Positions 1,164-47,645 of a stretch of 50,060 bases of DNA are shown piece after piece. The stretch comes from an uncultured Planctomycetota bacterium (GTDB lineage: Bacteria > Planctomycetota > Brocadiia > CAIUPP01), in assembly GCA_903901045.1 (NCBI GenBank), contig CAIUPP010000079.1:1-50060 (forward strand), given 5' to 3'. The position numbers and the translations under genes are program-made. The number at the start of each line of letters is the position of its first letter. Position 1 is the stretch's first letter. A model generated the notes under the pieces. That model made no database searches and was not told the origin of the DNA. It worked only from the letters and a program-made list of their open reading frames with translations.

Positions 1164-2957
1164 TTACAGCACGCGCAGGACGATGATGCTGATGTCGTCG
1201 CTTTGGCGCGTGCTCTTCGTGAACTGGTGGACTTCGTTGATCAGGCGGACGATGATCTCGGCGGAGGAAATTTTCCCCATCCGGCGAAGAAGGGCGATGA
1301 GCCGCTTGGTGCCAAAGATTTCCTCGTCGGCGTTGAGCGCCTCGGTGACGCCGTCGGTGTAGAGCAGCACCAGGTCGCCGGAGCGCAGTTGCACCTCGGC
1401 CTGTTCGTAGTTCTCGGTGTCATCCGCCCCCAGCACGAGCCCGCCGGCTTCCAGCGGCGTGGCGCGGCCGTGGCGCAGGAGCAGCGGGGGGTTGTGCCCG
1501 GCGTTGGTGTAGAGCAGGCTGTGCCGTTTCGGGTCGAGCACGCCGCAGAAGAGGGAGACGAATTGCCCGCTGCGGGTGTCGTGGCAGAGGTTGCGGTTGA
1601 GGCGGCGCACGACGCGGCTGGGGACGGTGGAGTTCTCCAGGTGCGCGCGCAGTCCGCCGCGCGTGCTGGCCATGAGCAGCGCCGCAGGCATCCCTTTGCC
1701 GACGACGTCCGCGATGATGATGGCCTGCCGGTTCTTGGGCAGCGAGACGAAGTCGTGGAAATCTCCCCCCACTTCGCCGCAGGGGAAGCCGGCGGCGGCA
1801 AGGTCGTACCCGTCGAGGAGGGGGGCGTGCTTCGGCTGCAACTGCTCCTGGATGCGTCCGGCGACGCGCAATTCGCGGTCCATCCGGCGCTTTTCGAGGC
1901 TTTGCTGGTAGAGCTGCGCGTTGTCGATGGCGGCCGCGGCCTGGTTCGCCAGGGAACGCAGCACCTGCACCTCGTCGGCGTCGAATTTCCGGGGCTCGGC
2001 GCTGTAGAGGTGCAGCGTGCCGATGGGGCGCTTCTTGCTGATGAGCCCCAGGCTGATGCCGGAGCGGATTCCCTCGCGCGCCGCTTCCTTGGGATAGAGG
2101 ACACGCGGGTCGTGCAGCATGTCCGCCATCTGAACCACTTCGCCGGCGAGCGCGGCGCGGTCGATGCCGCTCTTCTGCAGCACCACCGGCCCCTTGTCCA
2201 GGTAGCGCTGGCTCAGGTTGTAGGAGGATTTGATCACCAGCACCTTCCCCTGCGCGTCGAGAAGGCGGATCGAGCAGCCTTTGGCGCCGGAGAGCAGCGT
2301 GGCGCTCTTGGCGACCAGTTGGAGGACGCCCTCCAGGTCGAGCGTGCTGGTGAGCAGTTTGCTGACTTCGTAGAGCCCGCTGATTTCGCGCAGTTTCGCG
2401 CGAAGCTCCGCCCCCTGGTAGAAGAGGCTGGCCAGGGTGTTGGCGATGGTGACGAGCAGGCTGATGGTGCGGGAGAGCTCCTCCTCGGACCAGGGTTTGA
2501 GGGACTGAAGCGCGTCGATCATCTTGCGCTCGGAGACGCCGATTTTGCGGGAGAGCTCCGGGATGCGCTGGAACGTGGCCTGGCCCTCCGGCAGGTCGCC
2601 GGTGACGATGGTTCCGACGCAGACGCCTTCGACTTCGATCGGCGCGGCGAACTGGGAGAGGCCGGCGTGGCAGACGTATTTGACGACGCGGTGCTCCTCG
2701 GCGGCGCGCCGGACGGCGCGCGCGTTGCTGGCGCGGCAGCTCTTCTCACCCGCGCGCGAGTTGTTCACGAGGCGGCAGAATTTGTTCTGGCAACTCGGGC
2801 GCGTCACCGGCCGGCCGTTCAGGTCGCGGATGATGGCCGAAATGCCGGTCGTCTCGGCAAGGCGGTCCTGGACGCGCTGAAGGACTTCCACGTCCACCAG
2901 TTTCTCCAGCGGCGTCTCGCGCAGGAGCTTCGTCAGTTGTGCGTTCGTCTTCTTCAT
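1164..2957 (-). CDS. PocR-GAF-SpoIIE (PP2C-type) serine phosphatase
   Basis: A 597-residue cytoplasmic regulator. Residues ~20-175 form a PocR-type sensory domain with Cys56, Cys61, Cys74 and Cys96. Residues ~190-350 are a GAF domain. From ~375 comes a SpoIIE/PP2C phosphatase with metal-binding GEVGGDF (392-400, Asp399) and ADVVGKGMPAALLMA (Asp417). PocR domains are known as small-organic-molecule sensors, and SpoIIE phosphatases usually dephosphorylate an anti-sigma-factor antagonist. No partner kinase or STAS protein is seen nearby. The gene follows the corrinoid protein gene in the same direction but is separated by a strong intrinsic terminator. ATG at 2957 has a weak AGGA upstream. The ligand is unknown; a methylated one-carbon compound is possible given the neighbour. 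Confidence 0.85.
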   Translation of the reverse strand: MKKTNAQLTKLLRETPLEKLVDVEVLQRVQDRLAETTGISAIIRDLNGRPVTRPSCQNKFCRLVNNSRAGEKSCRASNARAVRRAAEEHRVVKYVCHAGLSQFAAPIEVEGVCVGTIVTGDLPEGQATFQRIPELSRKIGVSERKMIDALQSLKPWSEEELSRTISLLVTIANTLASLFYQGAELRAKLREISGLYEVSKLLTSTLDLEGVLQLVAKSATLLSGAKGCSIRLLDAQGKVLVIKSSYNLSQRYLDKGPVVLQKSGIDRAALAGEVVQMADMLHDPRVLYPKEAAREGIRSGISLGLISKKRPIGTLHLYSAEPRKFDADEVQVLRSLANQAAAAIDNAQLYQQSLEKRRMDRELRVAGRIQEQLQPKHAPLLDGYDLAAAGFPCGEVGGDFHDFVSLPKNRQAIIIADVVGKGMPAALLMASTRGGLRAHLENSTVPSRVVRRLNRNLCHDTRSGQFVSLFCGVLDPKRHSLLYTNAGHNPPLLLRHGRATPLEAGGLVLGADDTENYEQAEVQLRSGDLVLLYTDGVTEALNADEEIFGTKRLIALLRRMGKISSAEIIVRLINEVHQFTKSTRQSDDISIIVLRVL

Positions 2958-9258: not shown

Positions 9259-10482
9259 ATGCTGAACAAAGCCCTCCTCCAGCGCCGCCTGCTGGCATGG
9301 TATCGCCGCCACCAACGCGACCTCCCCTGGCGTCGCACCCGCGACCCGTACGCCATCTGGGTCAGCGAAATCATGCTCCAGCAGACCCAGGTCGCCACCG
9401 CCATCCCGTACTATGAGCGCTTCCTGCGCCGCTTCCCCCATGTGCGCGCGCTGGCGCGCGCGCCGATGGAGCGCGTTCTGAAATCGTGGGAAGGGCTTGG
9501 CTATTACAGCCGCGCGCGGAACCTGCGCCGCGCGGCGCAAATCGTCCTGGCCGAGCACGGCGGACGGCTCCCCGAAGAACCCGAGGCGCTGCGCAAGCTC
9601 CCCGGCATCGGGCGCTACACCGCCGGGGCGATCAGCAGCATCGCCTTCGACCGCGACGAGCCTGTTCTGGACGGCAACGTCATCCGCGTCCTCTGCCGCG
9701 TCTTCCTCATCCGCGCCAATCCGAAATCCGCCCGTACGCAGAAACGGCTTTGGAAACTCGCGGAAGAGTTGCTCCCTGCAGGACATGCGAGCTTCTTCAA
9801 CCAGGCCCTCATGGACCTGGGCGCGACGATCTGCATGCCCTCCCATCCGCATTGCGACCGATGCCCGCTGCGGCAAGCGCCTATCCGTTGCAGGGGCAAG
9901 GCATGCCTTGCCCCTACAAGCATGCCGGCGGAGGCCGTGCCGCATGGTAGGGGAGCAGCATGCTGCGCCCTTGCTGTTCCGCGCGGCCCAATCGGTTCAC
10001 CTGGCGGGTTATGCCGCGCCTTCGCAAAGGGGATGCAGGAGAAGCTTCCTCTGCGCGTTGCGCGCAAGGCGATCCCGCATTACGACGTCGCCGTGGGGAT
10101 TATCAGGAAGGGGGGCAAGATCCTGATTGACCGTCGCAAGCCGGAGGGGCTGCTCGGAGGGCTATGGGAATTCCCCGGCGGCAAAAAGCAGGGGGGGGAG
10201 TCGCTGGAGGAGTGCCTGGTTCGCGAAGTGCGCGAGGAGCTTGGCGTGCGCGTGCGAGTCCTGCGCCCGCTGGCCAGAGTCCGTCACGCCTACAGCCACT
10301 TCCGCGTCACTCTGCATCCCTTCGACTGCGGTTGGGTGAGCGGCCGCCCCCGCGCCATCGCCTGCGCGGAGTGGCGATGGGTTGCGCCGCGCCAATTGGG
10401 GCGTTTCGCATTCCCGGCGGCCAATAGAAGGATACTGGCTTGCATTGGAGCCGTGCCTGAGATGCGGGGCAAACGCATCTAA
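9259..10482 (+). CDS. mutY: A/G-specific adenine DNA glycosylase with in-frame palindrome insertion
   Basis: A 407-residue base-excision repair enzyme that removes adenine opposite 8-oxoguanine. Seen: SEIMLQQTQV with catalytic Glu37, the helix-hairpin-helix LPGIGRYTAGAI (~114-125), catalytic Asp138 in LDGNVIRVL, and a C-terminal Nudix-like domain with a full Nudix box (GG..Q..E...REVREELGV, ~308-330). The cluster should be Cys-x6-Cys-x2-Cys-x5-Cys. Cys192, Cys199 and Cys202 are present, but position 208 is Pro. About 50 residues follow (to ~258) that are encoded by two palindromic repeats; Cys211 inside the insert is the nearest replacement. The stop codon lies within another inverted-repeat element. 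ATG 9259 has GGAG upstream; a TTG 19 codons earlier is unlikely. Confidence 0.88.
   Translation: MLNKALLQRRLLAWYRRHQRDLPWRRTRDPYAIWVSEIMLQQTQVATAIPYYERFLRRFPHVRALARAPMERVLKSWEGLGYYSRARNLRRAAQIVLAEHGGRLPEEPEALRKLPGIGRYTAGAISSIAFDRDEPVLDGNVIRVLCRVFLIRANPKSARTQKRLWKLAEELLPAGHASFFNQALMDLGATICMPSHPHCDRCPLRQAPIRCRGKACLAPTSMPAEAVPHGRGAACCALAVPRGPIGSPGGLCRAFAKGMQEKLPLRVARKAIPHYDVAVGIIRKGGKILIDRRKPEGLLGGLWEFPGGKKQGGESLEECLVREVREELGVRVRVLRPLARVRHAYSHFRVTLHPFDCGWVSGRPRAIACAEWRWVAPRQLGRFAFPAANRRILACIGAVPEMRGKRI
9891..9916. repeat. CAAG-type palindrome inside mutY
   Basis: A perfect 22-base palindrome at 9893-9914 with arms GGGGCAAGGCA and TGCCTTGCCCC. Related copies lie at about 15548-15567 and 48792-48814. 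It is translated as part of the extra segment in MutY. Confidence 0.85.
9946..9976. repeat. GCAG-type palindrome inside mutY
   Basis: AGGGG, then a core GCAGCATGCTGC, then GCCCTTGC. One base is missing compared with the copies at 47613-47643 and 48740-48766, which read AGGGGC before the core. It lies 34 bases after the CAAG-type palindrome. Confidence 0.82.
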
Positions 10483-10704
10483 AAAGCGCCGCAGAATGTG
10501 GAGTGCGCCGCCGCCGGCGGCGCTTTGGCTATGACGGAGCGCACGACTCACGGGGCTACACCCTGAGGGCGCCGGACTCCGCGCCATCCAAAGCGGCGTC
10601 GTTGCCGCCGCACTCCACAAACCATCGCGCTCAGCGCGATCACAATCATGCATCGCGATCCAGACCCCTGACGCCACAGCCTGCGGCGCTCTTTAGATGC
10701 GTTT
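10471..10704. mobile_element. MITE-like 234-bp element with 24-bp terminal inverted repeats
   Basis: Bases 10471-10494 and 10681-10704 are inverted copies matching at 23 of 24 positions. Inside, a second inverted pair (10497-10529 and 10588-10619, GTGGAGTGC...GCTTTGG) and a perfect 17-base palindrome (10624-10640, ATCGCGCT-c-AGCGCGAT) are nested. There is no coding potential. The left arm contains the TAA of mutY. The element fills most of the gene-free stretch 10483-10909; the rest is the pheA promoter and leader. Whether it was ever mobile is inferred from its shape only. Confidence 0.6.
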
Positions 10705-10728
10705 GTCCTGCCCAAGATGCCGTTTTAA

Positions 10729-16224: not shown

Positions 16225-16275
16225 AATGACGAATGAATTTCCTAATCACCCAATCTCCCAATTGCCCAATCTCCC
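16225..16275. repeat. Short interspersed repeats (GACGAATGAA and CCCAATCTCCCAA types)
   Basis: The 88-base gap between coaC and coaB holds ATGACGAATGAA followed by CAATCTCCCAATTGCCCAAT and CTCCCA. The same words recur at 34.9-35.0 kb and 37.4-37.5 kb. No gene fits here. Confidence 0.6.
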
Positions 16276-34909: not shown

Positions 34910-35032
34910 ATGACGAATGACGAAATCCGAATGACGAATGAATGTCCCAAACGCCCAACACCGCGCCGCTGCTCCTGACTCTCTTGAGTCATTGTCTGTT
35001 TGATTCGTCATTCGGATTTTGTCATTCGTCAT
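34910..35032. repeat. Large inverted repeat (30 bp) of the ATGACGAATGAC type
   Basis: 34910-34939 and 35003-35032 are inverted copies agreeing at 29 of 30 positions, around a 63-base loop. The motif ATGACGAATGAC is itself partly repeated within each arm. It fills the gap between ribE and pdxA and could form a long hairpin in a shared transcript. Fragments recur at 16.2 kb. Confidence 0.8.
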
Positions 35033-44135: not shown

Positions 44136-44313
44136 CAGCCGCCATCCCTCCATGGGCGTGCGCGGCGGCGCGGGAAAGGGCTTCCGTTGAATTGGATGGG
44201 CGCGCTCATCGAGGCATACCGCCGACCACGCGACAAGAAGGATTCTACTGGATGCAGCACTCCCGTTGCAAGGATTCGCGCCACTCCTGCCCCTCCCAGG
44301 GCGGTGCAAGAGG

Positions 44314-44575
44314 GGGTCAGGCAACTTTTCGCAACGGCGAAAAGCGGGCAGAAAAGGGGTCAGGCAACTTTTCGCAACGGCGAAAAGCGGGTGGAAAAGT
44401 GGGTCAGGTAACTTTTCGCGACGGCGAAAAGCGGGTGGAAAAGTGGGTCAGGCAACTTTTCGCGACGGCGAAGAGCGGGTGGAAAAGGGGGTCAGGCAAC
44501 TTTTCGCAACGGCGAAAAGCAGCCCGACCCCTTTTCCGCTTCCCCTTTTCCGCTTCAATCCGGCGCGCTATCCCG
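44314..44575. repeat. Tandem array of five 43-44-bp hairpin units ending in an inverted copy
   Basis: GGTCAGGCAACTTTTCGC recurs with its T at 44317, 44360, 44404, 44448 and 44492. Each unit contains CTTTTCGC-(a/g)acg-GCGAAAAG, a tight hairpin, then GCGGG(T/C)GGAAAAG or a close variant. After the fifth unit the sequence AGCCCGACCCCTTTTCCGCT is the inverted form of the linker and is followed by a second partial copy. The gene-free stretch 44136-44581 holds this array and, from 44136 to 44313, nothing recognisable. A 44-base period shifts frame each time, so it is not coding. Confidence 0.88.
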
Positions 44576-47610: not shown

Positions 47611-47645
47611 TTGCGCAGGGGCGCAGCATGCTGCGCCCTTGCGGG
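47611..47645. repeat. GCAG-type palindrome
   Basis: GCGCAGGGG, then GCGCAGCATGCTGCGC, then CCTTGCGG. Same family as at 9948, 15596 and 48740. Confidence 0.82.

Follow-up and report, generated by a model that had tools for sequence, protein, structure and literature searches.

Paired GTAG-tagged palindromic repeats lie in frame between the third and fourth iron-sulfur cysteines of a planctomycete MutY

The window analysed here, a stretch of 50,060 nucleotides from an uncultured Planctomycetota bacterium, carries on its plus strand a mutY gene at positions 9259-10482 (stop codon included) that encodes 407 residues and scores 324.7 bits against the TIGR01084 mutY profile, for which the cut-off is 286.5. 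Pfam and NCBIfam profile matches identify an HhH-GPD domain and a Nudix-type C-terminal domain, the latter located at 10090-10440 on the plus strand (residues 278-394) and matching the full NUDIX_4 profile (E = 1.1e-32). An in-frame insert of 132 bp is present at 9877-10008 (plus strand, residues 207-250), with edges that are uncertain by about a codon. Downstream of it the reading frame continues into the Nudix-type domain, which is intact, as the preliminary description of this DNA had stated, and is predicted with a pLDDT above 90 in most of its blocks. All data derive from a single assembly of 154 contigs, representing a genome of 4.77 Mb.

The edges of the insert were set by alignment with relatives, as had been proposed. 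Solved MutY proteins align to residues 7-205 and then to residues 251-392, with nothing between, and the nearest genome, G001, which belongs to the same family, shows 69% identity over residues 7-206, after which its match picks up at residue 252 following a three-base gap. At this position G001 reads CPLRRRC and the MutY of the window reads CPLRQ, followed by 44 residues and then LC, such that the matches both to the solved structures and to G001 restart at LCRAFAKG. The extra segment noted initially is real, but it comprises 44 residues rather than about 50. It is missing from G001, from a second genome (G002), from the solved MutY proteins and from 62 MutY relatives, so the segment is not shared by these palindrome-free relatives (G001 and the 62). 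Among the 62, all of which have clean frames, the spacing between cysteines 3 and 4 is x5 in 59, x4 in one and x3 in one, with the pattern unmatched in the remaining one, and none exhibits a long insert between these cysteines.

Two palindromes are translated in frame within the insert, in agreement with the preliminary description. The first, of the CAAG type, spans 9890-9917 on the minus strand and has an intact GTAG tag at its right end, while its left tag reads GCAG; its core and 10-bp stem are perfect, and it folds well as single-stranded DNA (z of -4.2). The second, of the GCAG type, spans 9947-9970 on the plus strand, with a GTAG tag at 9947-9950, and is partly degenerate, bearing substitutions and a degenerate stem. 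Its fold as single-stranded DNA is indistinct from that of shuffled sequences (z of only -0.6), and its own stem is therefore judged to be weakened. The intact tags of the two palindromes face each other, 29 nt apart. With a score of -0.54 per codon, the codon usage of the insert falls below every one of 77 stretches of 44 codons tested from neighbouring genes (mean 0.51). This usage resembles that of non-coding DNA, as would be expected had such DNA recently been captured, and suggests that the insert is probably recent. No source was found for the 77 bp of the insert that lie outside the repeats when blastn was run against the stretches of the same genome fetched around repeat matches, where the insert as a whole recovered nothing beyond the palindromes and a few adjoining bases, apart from chance matches. 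Inspection by eye likewise revealed no target-site duplication compatible with the 132-bp length.

The insert lies within the iron-sulfur motif of MutY. The first three cysteines, Cys192, Cys199 and Cys202 (codons within 9832-9864, plus strand), are retained, as reported previously, and occupy invariant columns in a 54-sequence MutY alignment that draws on many phyla. The preliminary description also reported a proline at the expected fourth position and, from this, considered the fourth cysteine to be displaced or lost. Indeed, residue 208, at the x5 position, is a proline; that reading arose because the count from Cys202 landed on this residue, and Cys252, which sits directly after the right edge of the insert, was overlooked. 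Cys252 (codon 10012-10014, plus strand) aligns with the fourth cysteine of solved MutY proteins, including that of Geobacillus, and is likewise invariant in the 54 sequences, on which grounds we reject the idea that the fourth cysteine was lost or replaced. The motif thus reads C-x6-C-x2-C-x49-C, as opposed to the usual C-x6-C-x2-C-x5-C, and differs in the last spacing alone. Other invariant columns of the alignment are also kept. In human MUTYH, iron is no longer loaded once a cluster ligand is altered (C306W; PMC12000561), and a functional enzyme would therefore be expected to retain Cys252.

The structure predicted by AlphaFold2 from the 54-sequence alignment has a mean pLDDT of 90.5 and a pTM of 0.85. 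Residues 214-247 form the sole segment with a pLDDT below 50, the blocks beyond it on both sides, including the residues around 252, being modelled at high confidence. The best structural match of the model is DNA-bound MutY (9bs2), with a Z of 40.6 and an rmsd of 1.6 over 344 aligned residues. Because low confidence is confined to residues 214-247 and the remainder matches 9bs2, the insert is predicted to form a disordered loop on an intact MutY fold. The protein thereby resembles bacterial MutY and human MUTYH in its two domains and predicted fold, and in having the four cysteines and the other invariant columns, but 49 residues, as compared with 5, separate ligands 3 and 4.

Both palindromes belong to large families. 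A search of the 4.77-Mb genome, allowing up to 3 mismatches, returned 121 matches to the CAAG core and 139 to the GCAG core, spread over many contigs, and 0 matches to a reversed-pattern control; the GTAG-tagged forms number 128 and 135 on the two strands. Neither palindrome was found in G001 or G002 (0 matches each). The repeat units are GTAG-tagged and 24-30 bp each, and 37 neighbouring pairs within 150 bp were found among the copies examined. Thus, the families show three features of GTAG-type REPs, namely a GTAG or variant tag beside a hairpin with a stem of 6-13 bp, a high and dispersed copy number, and frequent pairing. Elsewhere in the window the palindromes had been described as intergenic, and the GCAG-type copies at 47618 and 48742 do fall between genes. 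A further family of the GTAG/GTGG type, CGCGGGTT...AACCCGCG, has 96 matches in the genome. In addition, a sister family, GTAGGGGCACGGCATGCCGTGCCC, is present in four genomes of the same class (G019, G023, G025 and G049), with up to 13 matches per strand. One genome of the same phylum from another family (G068; loci L289-L294) contains 48 matches to the CAAG palindrome, which is absent from nearly all genomes between, and this distribution suggests that the CAAG repeat may have spread horizontally; one of the seven copies inspected in G068 is in frame within a long PMT-type open reading frame.

MutY is not special as a REP target in this genome. We classed 206 distinct copies, a subset of those in the genome, taken from the stretches around matches, and 33 of them are in frame within 26 genes, mutY and at least 25 others, the latter at L249, L172, L054, L207, L033, L058, L051, L199, L186 and other loci. 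By Pfam and NCBIfam assignment, the tagged genes encode LigA, MutL, DnaE, an AddB-like protein, a DinG-like helicase, a class I tRNA synthetase (IleRS) and MurD, as well as LpxK, MnmA, MVD, an E2 acyltransferase, a DUF2400 protein, a QueE-like radical SAM enzyme and others. The in-frame copies give rise to recurring peptides (GKACLAPT, GARHALPL, GAQHAAPL and GAACCAPT), and the inserts in these other genes add approximately 12 to 41 residues at sites that are also variable among relatives, with MurD and LigA holding paired copies, as does MutY. The orthologues in REP-free G001 are without the extra residues and provide the edges of the inserts in about a dozen genes. Genes of replication and repair account for 6 of the 26 (MutY, MutL, LigA, DnaE, AddB-like and DinG-like), an enrichment that is only suggestive, with P ranging from 0.0005 to 0.015 for an assumed background share of 4-8%.

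Of the 206 copies, 49 are flanked on each side by clear coding in the same direction. The same frame is open through 30 of these, and in the remaining 19 the gene upstream stops no later than the repeat, with a further gene beyond it, such that none of the 49 interrupts a gene, the pattern that selection against frame-breaking insertions would leave. Since 132 of the 206 copies are without clear coding on both sides, some broken, decayed genes may be missed. The in-frame copies use the two stop-free phases 17 and 16 times and the TAG phase 0 times, a distribution that is largely forced by the picking of open frames and is given no weight here.

Taken together, we consider it highly probable that a pair of GTAG-tagged REPs entered mutY in frame with the normal ligand set kept, that selection filters such insertions, and that a RAYT-type transposase was the probable agent. 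The insert would comprise the REP pair and some unique flanking DNA, and would have entered mutY after the split of the lineage from its nearest sequenced relative, landing in the short loop that connects iron-sulfur ligands 3 and 4 with the frame kept, where it would be translated as a disordered loop of 44 residues. Cys192, Cys199, Cys202 and Cys252 would still make up the normal ligand set, on which basis both the [4Fe-4S] cluster and the adenine glycosylase activity of MutY have most likely been retained. REP elements may land in many places, with those insertions that shift the frame, bring stops or disrupt a structured core being purged; such purifying selection, which we infer from sequence, would explain why copies that persist inside genes keep the frame and occupy loops.

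We regard as unlikely the alternative that the insert disturbs the cluster loop and leaves MutY impaired or dead, either in a mutator lineage or as an early pseudogene whose frame has yet to decay. The apparent recency of the insert by codon usage and its position between two cluster ligands would fit such a scenario, as would the abolition of iron loading when a cluster ligand is lost in the human enzyme (C306W; PMC12000561), but the four cysteines and other invariant columns are kept, both domains are intact with an undisturbed predicted fold, and REP elements are also in frame in the usually essential genes for LigA, IleRS and MurD. We also hold it to be unlikely that REP insertion, beyond being tolerated in replication and repair genes, changes the activity of their products and gives the lineage an altered mutation rate, as the authors of a 2013 study speculated for other species (PMC3733652).

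Recruitment of Cys211 as the fourth ligand, raised in the preliminary description, is very improbable. Cys211 is near the x5 position and is one of four cysteines in the insert (with 216, 235 and 236), but the original, invariant Cys252 is present, so that Cys211 is not needed as a ligand, as judged from the sequence, and it sits beside the stretch predicted to be disordered from residue 214 onwards, whereas the residues around 252 are modelled at high confidence. A repeat-caused assembly artefact, to which a fragmented assembly with misjoin-promoting repeats could give rise, is hardly credible given that the repeats are under 30 bp, that a single MutY gene, read in one frame, makes up both flanks, and that the pattern recurs in 26 genes whose orthologues are without it.

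REPs that go with RAYT transposases are recognised by a GTAG-tagged hairpin (PMC3733652, PMC8266576), and the CAAG and GCAG families were probably moved by a transposase of this type (Y1/HUH). The genome contains six matches to the Y1_Tnp profile, two of which have GTAG- or GTGG-tagged palindromes beside them; one of these has a CAAG-type copy approximately 0.45 kb away, and no GCAG-type copy flanks either. Within the surroundings of the Y1_Tnp genes, no transposase gene flanked on both sides by CAAG and GCAG repeats was found. The first RAYT-like Y1 gene (L172, G000:C7:3000-8500; 2599-2874, minus strand) lies immediately upstream of the MutL gene that bears a REP. A CAAG-type palindrome is found at 2149, and GTGG-tagged CGCGGGTT palindromes are present on both sides of the Y1 gene. 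The second (L173, G000:C139; 2699-2929) has GTAG-CGCGGGCTTCAGCCCGCG repeats beside it, with which it likely constitutes a REP-transposase unit of another family.

The phenomenon itself, though little known, has been described before, and the present case, an unusually clean one structurally, belongs to the intragenic GTAG REP kind. A 2013 study reported REPs in frame within genes for both the GTAG and the CGTC superfamily, with Opitutus terrae and Rickettsia conorii ranking top (Di Nocera et al. 2013, PMC3733652). According to that study, more than half of the intragenic inserts are dimers or groups, and many of the targets, among them DNA ligase, act in the synthesis and repair of DNA. The repeats described here are similar in being high-copy, GTAG-tagged short palindromes that are often paired and in frame in many genes, including those of replication and repair, but they differ in host and repeat families from the intragenic GTAG REPs, which are most numerous in Opitutus terrae (PMC3733652); moreover, the insert here falls among the ligands of a metal cluster, and its exact edges can be read from a relative that is free of REPs. 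The older analogue is provided by the Rickettsia RPEs (Ogata et al. 2000, 2002, cited in PMC10969869), palindromic selfish DNA that is translated in frame in unrelated genes. The resemblance to these elements drawn in the preliminary description is supported as a working likeness, in that mobile palindromes are translated in frame in a DNA repair enzyme, MutY, and in unrelated genes. RPEs are, however, approximately 150 bp with conserved peptides (PMC10969869), as compared with repeats of 24-30 bp with a GTAG tag, and the GTAG REPs and the CGTC repeats of Rickettsia are treated as different superfamilies (PMC3733652). The present case adds another host, two repeat families and two targets, MutY and MutL, neither of which is named in the main text of PMC3733652, as well as the position inside a metal-cluster motif. 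With a REP-free relative giving edges in about a dozen genes and an insert between cluster ligands in MutY, the genome constitutes a clean natural experiment on short mobile DNA becoming protein, opening to experiment the questions of whether a [4Fe-4S] site can accommodate a ligand loop ten times the usual length and whether repair enzymes that carry REPs are altered or unaffected. Where a motif search insists on C-x5-C, a cluster of this kind would be mistaken for a lost one.

The window also contains other repeats. A tandem repeat of 43-44 nt, GGGGTCAGGCAACTTTTCGCAACGGCGAAAAGC, is present in five copies at 44309-44564 and is unlike the REPs. At 34910-35032, a 33-nt inverted repeat that is 94% complementary is made of ATGACGAATGAC-like units, with related sequence at 16225. 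Finally, the stretch from mutY to the next gene (10464-10711) contains nested long inverted repeats (41 nt at 85% and 43 nt at 74%), which probably form a large hairpin.
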